This document shows, piece after piece, positions 5,743 to 34,757 of a stretch of DNA of 34,757 bases; positions within the stretch are counted from its first letter, which is position 1, and each line of letters starts with the position of its first letter. The DNA comes from Actinomycetota bacterium. GTDB lineage: Bacteria; Actinomycetota; Actinomycetes; S36-B12; UBA5976. The notes beneath the pieces are model-generated. The model did no database searches and had not been told where the DNA came from. It was given only the letters and a program-made list of their open reading frames with translations. Position numbers and translations under genes: made by a program. The stretch covers positions 1 to 34,757 of the forward strand of contig RGDC01000006.1 in the NCBI GenBank assembly GCA_009918005.1, given 5' to 3'.

Positions 5743-7806
5743 GTGCCTAACCGACTCGTAGATTCAACATCGCCGTACTTGTTGCAGCACGCCGAAAATC
5801 CTGTTGATTGGTATCCGTGGTCTGAAGAGGCGTTTGAACTAGCTCGTAGTCGAGATGTACCGATTTTCTTAAGTGTTGGATACAGCGCTTGCCATTGGTG
5901 TCACGTTATGGCACATGAAAGCTTTGAAAACCCTTCCGTTGCAGCCTTGATGAATGAGTACTTTGTGAACATAAAGGTAGATCGTGAAGAGTTGCCTGCC
6001 GTTGATTCGTTGTACATGGAGGCAACTCAGGCAATGACTGGACAAGGTGGTTGGCCAAATTCAGTTTGGCTTGACCATGATCGAAGGCCTTGGTACGCGG
6101 GAACTTATTTTCCTCCCCGCCCATCACATGGAATGCCCTCGTTCACCCAAGTCCTCCTAGCATTAAATGACACTTGGACCAACGAGCGAGAGCGAGTTAG
6201 TGAATCGTCGACTCGAATCATGGAGCACATCGGATCACGAAATGAACTAATTGTTAAATCTAAATCAGAATTTACTCGAGATGAAATTTCATTTGCAGTA
6301 ACTTCAGGCATAGATTCTCTCGCTTTAGGTTTTGATTCGGTAAATGGCGGATTTGGTGATGCTCCCAAATTCCCACCCTCTCTGGCATTGGAATTCCTAC
6401 TTAGATGTGAAGCATTAAATAAAATTGAAGGCAGCGAATCAGACTTTCGCATTATGCAAATGGTCGAGCAAACCTGTGATGCCATGGCACGAGGTGGAAT
6501 TTACGACCAACTAGGTGGAGGTTTTGCTCGGTATAGTGTGGATGCAACCTGGACCGTTCCACACTTTGAAAAAATGCTCTACGACAATGCGCAACTTCTT
6601 TCCATATATGCACATCTATATCGCCTGACCGGGGATACGCAAGCGCTACGGATTACAACTGAAACTGCGGAGTTCCTAATTCGTGAAATGCAAACCCCAG
6701 AAGGTGGCTTCGCAGCAGCGCTTGATGCCGATAGCAACGATCTGGAAACTGGGCATACCGAAGAAGGCGCTTTCTATGCCTGGACGCCGAAGCAAATAAC
6801 CGAAGTGCTCGGTGCGGCTGATGCAGATTGGGTGATACGCCTTTGCAATGTAACCGTAGATGGAACTTTCGAACTCGGTAAATCGGTTCTAACTCTTCAC
6901 CAGGATCCAGATGACTGGGGTAGATGGTTTAACTTGCGAGAAAAGCTTTTGCTATCCAGAGAAACTAGACCTCGCCCCGGTAGAGACGACAAGATAGTCG
7001 CAAGTTGGAATGGACTCACAATCCGTGCCTTAGTTGATGCTGGCAGTATCTGCAGTAGGCAAGACTGGATTGACTGCGCCACACGTGCTGGAGACCTGTT
7101 GGTGAGCACACATCTGGGGGCTGACGCAGAACACTCGAGCAGATTGGTAAGAGTTTCACGCGATGGCAAACCGGGACTTCATGCACTTGGTGTCCTAGAG
7201 GATCAAGCACTGGTGGCAAGTGCGTTTCTGGCTTTGGCGCAGGTCAATGGCGACGACGCTTGGCGCGAATTAGCTGGGACTTTGCTTGCTGACATTAAAG
7301 ATCATTTTCAGCAAGGTTCTGGATTAACAGATACTGCAAACGATGTTGAACCAGTTGCTAAAGATGTTACTTCGAGACAAGTAGATCCAACGGACAACGT
7401 AACTCCATCGGGCTGGGCCGCGACGATTGATGCAGCTTTAACGTACTCAGCATTATCGGGAGATACCGAGATGCGAAGCTGGGCCGAATCCTTTATGCCA
7501 GCGCTAATCCCATTGGTTGCATCTCATACTCGGTTTGCGGGATGGGGAAGTGCCACATTCGTTACCTGGCTAGATGGTCCTCGCGAAGTAGCGATTGTTG
7601 GTCCAAGTGATTCTGAGCTCCAAAACGTATTGGCTCAAGGAACTGCGCCAGGTTTGGTTTACGCTTGGGATGCCGAACAGCCATTACTTCAGAATCGAAA
7701 AGTGCTTAAAGAAACGGCGACTGCGTATGTATGTCGCGGATTTGTTTGCGATGCCCCAACTAATGATTTACAAACATTAAAAAAATCAATTGGAGTTTTC
7801 AACTAA
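5743..7806 (+). CDS. Thioredoxin domain-containing protein (DUF255 / YyaL family)
   Basis: Starts [38 protein letters not shown] motif; [32 protein letters not shown]. Confidence 0.93.
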
Positions 7807-8579
7807 ACACCAAAACGTCGATTTCTTGCAGTGTATGAGCGCACAGCCCGCAAGAAATCAATTTTGCGAAAGTTAGGCCAGTAGGCTTCGCAAAAATAAA
7901 ACTCAGAATGCGCACTTTGCCAGAGTAAAAAACCGCTTAGTCTTTGTTCACCAGAAGTTCGGATCACTAAATCGGGGTCAGGTTGCCCTTTAGTGTAAAG
8001 ATGTGAAGCAATGTGCTCGATATCGATTTCGGATGCAATTTCTGCTAGAGATTTGCCGATGGCCGCTTCCGCAATAAGCAATGATCTAACTGCATCCACA
8101 ACTTCTTGCCGACCACCGTATCCAATTGCAACATTGACCAAAAGCCCTGGGACATGTTCGGTCGCAACTTTAGTTCTATTAAGTAGATCTCTAGTTTTCA
8201 CGGGAAGTAGTTCAAGTGCGCCAACTGGATGGATCTGCCATCTTCCGGTGTTACCCAAAGAGGTCACAGTCTCTTCAATGATTTCTAGTAATGCGTCTAA
8301 CTCAGAAGGTTCACGAAGTAGATTGTCCGTAGAAAGTAGCCAGAGAGTTACAACCTCAACACCCAGTTCCTCACACCACCCAAGGAACTCAGCAATCTTT
8401 TCACCACCGGCCCGATGACCGTAGGCACTTGATGAACCCATCTCGGCAGCCCAGCGACGATTCCCATCCAAGATCACGCCAACATGAGCAGGAAGCTGAT
8501 CTTTGGGGAGTGAAGAAGTTAGCCGATGTCCATACAAGTCGTATGCGACATCACCCACAAGAGTGCGAATTCTTCCCAT
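7803..8579 (-). CDS. uppS: Isoprenyl (undecaprenyl/decaprenyl) diphosphate synthase
   Basis: [13 protein letters not shown] motif, [36 protein letters not shown]. Start at 8579 preferred over 8612 (TAATCT upstream). Confidence 0.92.
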
Positions 8580-8586
8580 GCGCCCA

Positions 8587-8592
8587 AGATTA
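8587..8592 (-). promoter_or_regulatory. Candidate -10 (TAATCT) for uppS
   Basis: TAATCT-N7-ATG(8579, minus strand). Confidence 0.4.
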
Positions 8593-8764
8593 GTAGATCG
8601 CCAAAGATGCAACTACATCCCTGTAATTGTTCAGAAATTCACCAACGCGCAACTCTTTGTCTCGGCGTGTCTGACCTAGCAAAATGCAGTGCAGGAATAC
8701 GGTCATTTGTATCGGGCAATTCCGAGCCTTCCCAAGGATAAATCTGAAAATCTGGGGTGAGCTC

Positions 8765-10072
8765 GTGGCCGAATCGAACACTCAAAAGCGCACGTATGTT
8801 TTGGATACTAGCGTCTTGCTTTCTGATCCGAGTGCCCTGTTTCGATTTGATGAACATGAAGTAGTTATTCCGGTAGTTGTAATTACGGAATTGGAAACAA
8901 AGCGCACTCATCCCGAACTTGGTTACTTTGCACGTTCAGCACTCCGCAGCCTTGATGATCTGCGAATTAAGCATGGGCGACTTGATGCCCCACTTCCACT
9001 TGGCGATAAAGGTGGAGTCCTAAGAGTTGAACTTAATCATACGAACTCAGAAATTTTGCCTGCCGGTTTTCGTTTAGGTGATAACGACACCAGAATTCTT
9101 TCCGTCGCCAAAAATCTTTCTTCTGAGGGCTGTGACGTAGTTCTAGTAAGCAAAGATTTACCACTTCGAGTCAAGGCTTCAGCCGTGGGATTAGAGGCGC
9201 AGGAATATCGCGCTGAGATTGTGCCATCAAGTGGCTGGACCGGCATGGCAGAAGCGTCCGTAAGTTCTTCTGAGATTGATTCTCTCTACAGCGATGACAT
9301 CATCGATCATGAAAGCGCACGGGAAAATCCATGTCACACCGGAATTGTTCTTTCCAGTGAAAGAGGAAGCGCATTAGCTAGAGTGACACCAGATAAGCGC
9401 CTACAACTTATTCGAGGTGATCGGGAAGCATTTGGCTTACATGGCAGAAGTGCAGAGCAGCGAATCGCATTGGATTTACTGCTTGATCCTGAGATCGGAA
9501 TTGTTTCACTTGGTGGGCGAGCTGGAACGGGTAAGAGTGCCTTAGCACTTTGTGCTGGCCTTGAGGCTGTCATGGAGCGCCAACAGCACCGCAAAGTAGT
9601 CATTTTTCGGCCACTTTATGCAGTAGGTGGCCAGGAACTTGGCTACTTACCGGGTAGTGAAAACGAAAAAATGTCTCCATGGGCCCAAGCAGTATTTGAT
9701 ACCTTGTCAGCCGTCACTTCTGGTGATGTGATCGATGAGATTTTGGAACGAGGAATGCTCGAAGTCCTGCCTTTAACTCACATTCGGGGTCGTTCATTGC
9801 ACGACACTTTTGTCATTGTGGATGAAGCGCAATCACTGGAGCGAAATGTTTTACTGACAGTACTTTCGCGCATTGGAAAAGATAGTCGAGTTGTTTTAAC
9901 ACACGACGTTGCGCAGCGAGATAACTTACGCGTTGGTAGACATGACGGTGTTGTTGCAGTTGTAGAAAAACTCAAAGGTCATCCATTGTTTGCACACGTA
10001 ACTCTTAATCGATCAGAGCGGTCTCCAATTGCTGCATTGGTAACAGACTTATTGGAAGACCTGCCTGCCTAA
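8765..10072 (+). CDS. PhoH family protein with N-terminal PIN domain
   Basis: PIN start [14 protein letters not shown]; Walker [30 protein letters not shown] 8765 preferred over 8684. Confidence 0.92.
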
Positions 10073-30182: not shown

Positions 30183-30232
30183 TGGAGTGCTGAGAAAGTT
30201 ACTTTTCTCGCAGGATTTGTATGGAGGTCGAA

Positions 30233-30553
30233 ATGACTTATGTGATCGCACTGCCTTGTGTGGACGTTAAAGATAAGGCTTGCATCGAAGAATGCCCAGT
30301 AGATTGCATCTACGAAGGCGATCGCATGATGTACATCCAGGCCGATGAATGCGTTGACTGTGGCGCATGTGAACCAGTTTGCCCAACAGAGGCTATCTAC
30401 TACGAAGATGATGTCCCAGAAAAGTGGGATAACTTCAAGGGAGTCAACACCGCATTTTTTGAAACCCTTGGCTCTCCAGGTGGCGCATCAAAAACTGGAA
30501 AGACCAGCAATGATCCAGAAGAAATCAAGTCACTTCCGACCCAGGTGAGTTAA
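30233..30553 (+). CDS. fdxA: 7Fe-type ferredoxin FdxA
   Basis: MTYVIALPCVDVKDKACIEECPVDCIYEGDRMMYIQADECVDCGACEPVCPTEAIYYEDDVP; GGAGG SD upstream of ATG 30233. Confidence 0.95.
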   Translation: MTYVIALPCVDVKDKACIEECPVDCIYEGDRMMYIQADECVDCGACEPVCPTEAIYYEDDVPEKWDNFKGVNTAFFETLGSPGGASKTGKTSNDPEEIKSLPTQVS

Positions 30554-31620
30554 CTGATTTCACCACTTGCAAACGGCTTACCAGATTTTCCTTGGGACCG
30601 GATTGCAGCAGCCGGCGAAGTTGCAAAAAAGCATCCAGATGGAATTATTGATCTGTCCATTGGGACACCGGTTGATGACACTCCAGAAGTTATTACTTCT
30701 GCGCTGGCCGCCGCCGCTAATGCACCTGGCTACCCAACTGCAGCTGGACTAATCGAACTCCGACAAGCATGGGTCTCTTGGGCTTCGCGCATCTTGTCGG
30801 CTGAATTAAACGTCGATCAAGTTGTGCCATCAATTGGATCTAAAGAAATTGTTGCTTGGCTCCCGGTTGTTTTTGGATTAAATGCCAGCAGTACAGTTGC
30901 CATTCCAGAACTTGCTTATCCAACGTATGCAGTTGGCGCATTGATGGCTCATGCAAAATACGTAACCTACAAACAAGCCTCTGATATTCCAGATAACGCT
31001 GACTTGATTTGGGTGAACTCCCCAAGCAATCCAACAGGGGAAGTTTTAACCGCAGATCAACTAAAAGAAATTGTTGCCCGCGGCCGGGAACTATCTGCAC
31101 CAGTTGTAAGCGATAGCCAATTTCAATTTTGGATCCACGAGTTTGCGGAACAGACTTCACTGGAATTTTGGCAGTCCACTCGTTGTCAAAGCGTTCAAAT
31201 CTTGCTGGCTATCGTTCTGGCGCTGTGCTAGGTGACACCAAATTGATTGCAGACATAGTCTCTCTGCGAAAGCACGCTGGAATGCTCGTCTCAACTCCGG
31301 TGCAGTTGGCGACGGTTGCAGCACTTGGCGATGACGCACACGTTGCAGCGCAAAAAGCGCGTTACGCCAAACGACGTGACGTACTTCACACCGCACTCAT
31401 TTCAGCCGGTTTCAAAATCGAACATTCTCAGGCAGGCCTATATCTGTGGGCAACAAATGGGACAGACTGCCTTGAAACGGTTAACTGGCTTGCCAGCAAG
31501 GGTATTTTGGCAGCTCCGGGAGATTTCTACGGGCCCGCAGGTCAGAATCACGTGCGTTTGGCGCTAACTGCGACTGACGAGCGGATTGCTAGCGCAGTTT
31601 CGCGGTTAACGGTTAATTAA
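30554..31620 (+). pseudogene. dapC: Succinyldiaminopimelate transaminase DapC, reading frame disrupted
   Basis: Frame of 30554 gives LISPLANGLPDFPWDRIAAAGEVAKKHPDGIIDLSIGTPVDD...RELSAPVVSD (to 31114); the homologous continuation PISILDPRVCGTDFTGILAVHSLSKRSNLAGYRSGAV... is in another frame from 31117. Confidence 0.85.
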
Positions 31621-32984: not shown

Positions 32985-33905
32985 TTAGTTTTTGTGCAGG
33001 GCTTCGTTTAGCCCACCCCAAGTACCTTCTCTAGTTACGGCCTCGAGTGCGCCTGAAACTGAATTGCGGCGGAATAGCAAACCATTAGCTCCTGACAACT
33101 CCTTGGCTTTAACAACGGTGTTGTCTGGCAGCGTGATTTTTGATCCGCCGGTTATGTAGCAGCCAGCTTCAACGACGCAACTGTCACCAAGTGAAATGCC
33201 AACTCCGGCATTAGCTCCAACCAGGCAATTCTCACCGATCGTGATTACTTCCTTGCCGCCACCCGAGAGTGTTCCCATAATGCTGGCGCCACCACCGATA
33301 TCAGAGCCATTGCCGACTACAACTCCAGCTGAGATACGTCCTTCAACCATGCTGGCTCCCAAAGTTCCGGCATTGAAGTTAACAAAACCTTCATGCATGA
33401 CAGTTGTGCCAGCTGCGAGGTGAGCACCCAATCGAACTCGATCAGCATCGGCAATTCGCACCCCGCTTGGAACCACGTAGTCCAGCATTCGCGGAAACTT
33501 ATCTAGACCGAAAACGTTCAGGTAGATGCCCTTGGCTCGGGCTTTGATTGCCACTTCAGAAACGTTTTCAACGGCAACCGGACCAAGGGAAGTCCAGGCG
33601 ACATTTGTAAGCAAGCCAAATAACCCATCCAGATTGATAGTTCTCGGTGCCATCAAGCGGTGGGAAAGTAAATGTAAGCGCAAGTACGCATCCGCAGCAT
33701 CTGTAGGCGCAGCACTCAAATCTGAAGTGGTTGTAATTACCTCAACGCGAACTCCACGCAGGGCATCAGTATCTATTCCACGTTCTAGTCCGGTAACGTG
33801 CGCTGGATTATCGCCAAGCACAGGCTGTGGATACCAAACATCAAGCAGCACATCAGCCGAGTAAGTGGCTAATCCGGTTGCAGTTGCGATCTGACTCTGG
33901 CTCAT
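32985..33905 (-). CDS. dapD: 2,3,4,5-tetrahydropyridine-2,6-dicarboxylate N-succinyltransferase
   Basis: Left-handed beta-helix repeats; [69 protein letters not shown]. Confidence 0.94.
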
Positions 33906-33956
33906 GTCATTCCTTGAATTTAGGGGTCATAAGTAGTGAAAAAAGCATTACAGGAC

Positions 33957-33962
33957 TACCGT
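33957..33962 (+). promoter_or_regulatory. Candidate -10 (TACCGT) for dapE
   Basis: TACCGT-N6-GTG(33969). Confidence 0.35.
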
Positions 33963-33968
33963 AGTCGT

Positions 33969-34757
33969 GTGGACATAGTTGCGTTAAACCCGCACGCCGA
34001 CATAGTTGCGCTGACTGCAGATCTAGTCAATATTCCTAGCGTTTCAGGTAATGAAGCGGCTTTGGCAGACGCCATTTTCCAAGAGTTAAGCAAATGTAAC
34101 TGGCTAGAAGTTCATCGCTTCAAGAACTCGGTGGTAGCAAAAACCAACTTAGGTAAAGCCTCGCGAGTGATTGTTGCGGGTCACATAGATACCGTTCCTG
34201 TAGCCGACAATGAAAAAGCAGTCTTTGTAACAAGCGGTCAAGGCCTGCCAAGTGATGGCACCCAAGTACCTGAAGATGTAGTTTTTGGAATTGGCTCCTG
34301 CGACATGAAGGGTGGGGTGGCCGTAGCCCTTCGAGCTGCGGTTTCAATTGAGAACCCTCAGTTTGACGTGACCTATATTTTTTACGAATGCGAAGAAGTC
34401 GACAGCGAGCGAAATGGCCTAACCCTGATTGCTGCGGAACATCCAGAATGGCTTGTCGCCGACATTGCCGTTTTGTTAGAGCCATCAAATGCAAACATTG
34501 AAGCCGGCTGCCAAGGAACCCTGCGGGCAAAAGTCTCAACGGTAGGCACTCGCGCTCATAGCGCACGATCGTGGCTAGGGAATAACGCAATCCATAATCT
34601 TGGTGACATCTTGGCCAGACTCAATTCCTACGAGCCAGCAAAAGTAATGATCGATGGACTTGAATATCGGGAAGGCTTGAACGCGGTACAAGTAACTGGT
34701 GGAATTGCTGGAAATGTTATTCCGGATTCGGCAACTGTTGAAGTTAATTACCGATAC
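33969..34757 (+). CDS. dapE: Succinyl-diaminopimelate desuccinylase, N-terminal part (truncated by window end)
   Basis: Absent from the ORF track because no stop lies in the window; translation ALTADLVNIPSVSGNEAALADAIF...VIVAGHIDTVPVADN...FGIGSCDMKGGVAVALRAA...YECEEVDSERNGL. Alternative start GTG 33936. Confidence 0.93.
   Translation, partial: MDIVALNPHADIVALTADLVNIPSVSGNEAALADAIFQELSKCNWLEVHRFKNSVVAKTNLGKASRVIVAGHIDTVPVADNEKAVFVTSGQGLPSDGTQVPEDVVFGIGSCDMKGGVAVALRAAVSIENPQFDVTYIFYECEEVDSERNGLTLIAAEHPEWLVADIAVLLEPSNANIEAGCQGTLRAKVSTVGTRAHSARSWLGNNAIHNLGDILARLNSYEPAKVMIDGLEYREGLNAVQVTGGIAGNVIPDSATVEVNYRY

Follow-up and report, generated by a model that had tools for sequence, protein, structure and literature searches.

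Organization of the dapC locus

The window, the whole stretch of 34,757 nucleotides analysed here, belongs to a MAG of 218 contigs and 1.52 Mb (84% complete, 4.5% contamination; G000 below). The genus falls within the freshwater Ca. Nanopelagicales, and its named same-genus relatives are freshwater MAGs of that group. The forward strand of the window encodes an actinobacterial-type succinyldiaminopimelate transaminase (dapC) in two parts that lie in different reading frames. The N-terminal part (30554–31114) opens at 30554 (LISPLANGLPDFPWDRI..., as in relatives), ends in ...RELSAPVVSD and matches positions 1–184 of the 357 positions of the DapC_actino model (TIGR03539) with 227 bits. Position 30794, where an earlier note on this DNA had placed the start of the upstream ORF, is an internal TTG. 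Beyond 31114 this frame continues without homology to a stop codon at 31229–31231. The C-terminal part (31117–31620, forward strand; PISILDPRVCG...RLTVN) resumes in another frame with a CCA codon at 31117 after two bases (AG), the same break that the earlier note had described, and runs to a stop codon at 31618–31620. It matches model positions 194–357 with 257.4 bits and shows 91–96% amino-acid identity to its closest congeners.

Directly upstream, the ORF list gives a forward-strand gene (30221–30553) that we take, from its sequence, to encode a ferredoxin; fdxA or fdxC is the usual neighbour of dapC. As for the nearby dapD and dapE genes mentioned previously, a dapD-like ORF on the reverse strand (32985–33905) is intact, and a dapE-like ORF on the forward strand (33936–34757), taken from the open-ended ORF list, runs past the end of the contig. 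Both were assigned by sequence reading rather than by a family-library scan.

The two parts of dapC together span the whole family model, with nine positions falling inside the gap. The family cut-off of 355.65 bits is reached in neither frame, whereas an intact congener dapC scores 529.6 bits. The locus resembles that of actinobacterial DapC of the TIGR03539 type (M. tuberculosis Rv1178 and C. glutamicum DapC) in the end-to-end match of both halves and in the adjoining ferredoxin gene, but differs in that 31 nt are gone at the SDECY block and the enzyme is encoded by no single frame. Rv1178, the orthologue type of the window gene, is likely to be the true mycobacterial DapC; it is held to be so in M. 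tuberculosis, and it shares 61% identity with the validated enzyme of C. glutamicum (PMC12910592).

The junction and its flanks

A nucleotide alignment with 29 relatives, including 20 congeners, places a single gap between 31114 and 31115 (forward strand), where the window is exactly 31 nt shorter than every congener. The junction is blunt, and the absent segment corresponds to the block ECYIELGW(D/E)x. The 34 gap columns seen in the wider alignment reflect one extra codon in two order-level relatives. Every relative has an open frame across the site, reading SDECYIELGW-(D/E)x(E/Q)P(I/V)S or similar, and dapC is unbroken in all congeners, with a length of at least 343 residues (the 343-residue case ends at its contig end). 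The alignment therefore upholds the earlier proposals that about 31 nt were lost at the active-site segment and that the defect is not a one-base slip. Only SD is left of the SDE-x-Y segment; its tyrosine, which in fold-type-I aminotransferases makes contact with the phenolic oxygen of PLP, lies in the absent block. The retained bases are GAT to the left of the junction and AGCCA to its right; whichever synonymous codons are used for the conserved block, no base is shared across the breakpoints. Because the junction contains neither a repeat nor microhomology, slippage of replication across direct repeats was rejected.

Both halves of dapC have dN/dS values of 0.03–0.07 against six congeners (187 aligned codons for the N-terminal part), compared with 0.02–0.07 for intact congeners among themselves. 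The flanks are thus otherwise intact, as had been noted from the sequence, and show no relaxation of selection, although a very recent lesion would look alike. These values imply that the lesion, if not spurious, is very young.

Similar deletions elsewhere in the assembly

A census of comparable lesions was begun because an unrelated aminotransferase on another contig of the assembly (C195) was also found broken in the first search. ORFs of three relatives (G015, G013 and G009) were compared by tblastn with 386 kb of G000, about a quarter of the assembly, and comparisons of the relatives with each other served as controls. Over 216.0 kb of coding sequence aligned with G015, G000 contains 14 clean deletions of 31–65 nt, leaving aside three further in-frame gaps located in repeats or low-complexity stretches. 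The alignments were inspected and the flanks are clean at the deletion sites. Ten of the deletions are out of frame and four are in frame; the latter proportion is about the one third expected in the absence of selection on frame. The controls gave three deletions for G013 (192.8 kb) and none for G009 (86.4 kb), with Fisher p about 0.015 for each comparison, so that the rates per 100 kb are 6.5 (G000), 1.6 (G013) and 0 (G009). Some census contigs were picked for aminotransferase hits and C195 was already known to be broken, which introduces some ascertainment bias into the G000 rate; omission of both C195 and the window still leaves 10 of the 14 deletions.

The 5.4 kb contig C195 (L069) carries four deletions of ∼32–65 nt, at about 790, 3474, 4588 and 4879, two of them in the gene of a MalY/PatB-type aminotransferase and one each in those of an Ogt-type methyltransferase and a membrane protein. 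On C25, a class-III aminotransferase gene is interrupted by a similar loss, and lgt has a further out-of-frame deletion (−52 nt) with G009 as the reference. A few similar deletions, at the lower rate given above, are also present in G013, at about 10005 of contig C39 (L100) and about 18970 of contig C7 (L107); the G013 losses comprise −64 and −67 nt and a 14-residue in-frame loss in an aminotransferase.

Several of the affected G000 genes are indispensable. In rplB (C153, 1862–2632), 63 nt are gone in frame, removing 21 conserved residues of ribosomal protein L2; the remainder is 100% identical to G015, and the assembly contains no second rplB. On C210 (at 1393), a loss of 46 nt disrupts the replicative dnaE, and the one other DnaE-like gene is a paralogue at 31% identity. 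The succinate dehydrogenase iron–sulfur subunit gene (sdhB; C80, at about 4365) lacks about 50 nt, and deletions are also found in truA, in pheA and in the gene of an SDR, which is deprived of its YxxxK active site. Since the sole rplB, the sole replicative dnaE and the other genes could not all be broken together in a living cell, the assembly itself must make such lesions.

Origin of the deletion in dapC

The lesion in dapC is like the others in size range, in its blunt form and in its indifference to function, which makes a common cause by far the most likely. Lesions of the same class occur in other genes of the assembly, some of them indispensable, and their rate exceeds that in the relatives. 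On these sequence comparisons, we consider it very probable that the split of dapC is an assembly artefact, in which correctly assembled flanks were joined bluntly with the loss of 31 nt. The organism most likely carries an ordinary, intact, single-copy, ferredoxin-linked actinobacterial dapC. Among the three causes offered by the earlier note, an assembly-made lesion therefore stands, and a recent or a polymorphic biological lesion is disfavoured by the same kind of deletion in the sole rplB, the sole replicative dnaE, sdhB and lgt.

Small local indel errors are a known class of assembly fault (PMC10582259). The G000 deletions share with short deletion errors in draft (metagenome) assemblies the clean loss of tens of bases, many times per genome and irrespective of function or frame, but they are unusually uniform (31–65 nt) and lie off repeats. 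Blunt, non-overlapping joins are not expected from a k-mer graph, so the likeliest source would be a later gap-closing or scaffold-joining step, for example one in which an unresolved gap was removed, rather than chimeric reads. Unusual processing is also suggested by the contig sizes, which resemble a fingerprint of assembly or trimming software: 26 of the 40 known G000 contigs have sizes of 0 or ±1 modulo 30 (about four expected), 12 of them exact multiples of 30, and no multiple of 30 occurs among the sizes of 20 G009 contigs. On contig C149 (L088), a near-perfect tandem duplication of 23 nt at 9502–9547 breaks a gene that is intact in G013 and G015, as would be expected where two overlapping ends are abutted. 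The duplication and the contig sizes fit processing at a gap step but do not prove it.

A different assembly fault, in which the contig was stitched from two co-occurring relatives with bases lost at the seam, is suggested by a switch of affinity across the dapC junction. The segment 30674–31034 is 90–94% identical to G013 and G021 and about 82% identical to G009, whereas 31154–31394 is 90% identical to G009 and 76–81% identical to G013 and G021, against a background of about 80%. A chimeric join of a G013-like left part to a G009-like right part is nevertheless unlikely. The changeover is gradual over 31054–31160, around the deletion; both kinds of site occur on either side of it, and the outer flanks show no clear preference. 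The mosaic indicates either real recombination at the locus or a mixed consensus; intragenic recombination among congeners and a mixed-population consensus are both compatible with it, and the former accounts for it as well as a chimeric join does. As a general cause, chimeric joining was rejected, because no step in G015 identity is seen at nine other lesions (mean difference of 2.8 points compared with 3.9 at random points).

A real, recent deletion of 31 nt in the strain or in part of the population is the literal reading of the deposited DNA, and the intact, purified flanks would also be expected of a young pseudogene. It would entail strain-specific inactivation of dapC with retention of dapD and dapE, such that another aminotransferase supplies N-succinyl-LL-DAP or the cell depends on external DAP or lysine; we regard both the deletion and this consequence as very improbable. 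In its favour, neither a second intact DapC_actino copy on another contig nor an intact ECYIELGW block was found in the assembly, which is 84% complete. Against it, no substitute is in sight in the same incomplete assembly: five class-III aminotransferases were scanned and all score below the argD cut-off, and a further one, on C25, is itself interrupted. The dapD and dapE ORFs are kept, every congener that has dapC keeps it intact and the junction lacks the direct repeat or microhomology of slippage. Lesions of this class in the sole rplB and the sole replicative dnaE arise in the assembly without any biology, so that the gap in dapC cannot be taken as biological either. If the deletion is an artefact, no substitute DAP aminotransferase, ArgD-type or other, is needed, contrary to the earlier suggestion. 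A literature search on dapC frameshifts returned only papers on muscular dystrophy and unrelated subjects.

A functional DapC made as two polypeptides or by programmed frameshifting, for which the open frames in both halves and a TTG at 31129 might speak, is practically out of the question and was rejected: no reading frame encodes the residues lost between the two halves, among them the motif tyrosine, so that neither route could rescue activity, no in-register slippery heptamer precedes the junction, and none of the relatives compared has this shorter arrangement.

Consequences for gene-content inference

In G000, every 15 kb or so of coding sequence contains one deletion of tens of bases, essential genes included, and completeness scores do not reveal them. 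Without read mapping, split or truncated genes in this assembly should therefore not be taken as evidence of gene loss, auxotrophy or pseudogenization; the same holds for G013, where such deletions are less frequent. Elsewhere in the window, in the region of a minus-strand ORF (7803–8612), the frame differs from that of G015 by one base at about 8600; local identity is low there, and either an error or an alignment effect could be responsible.
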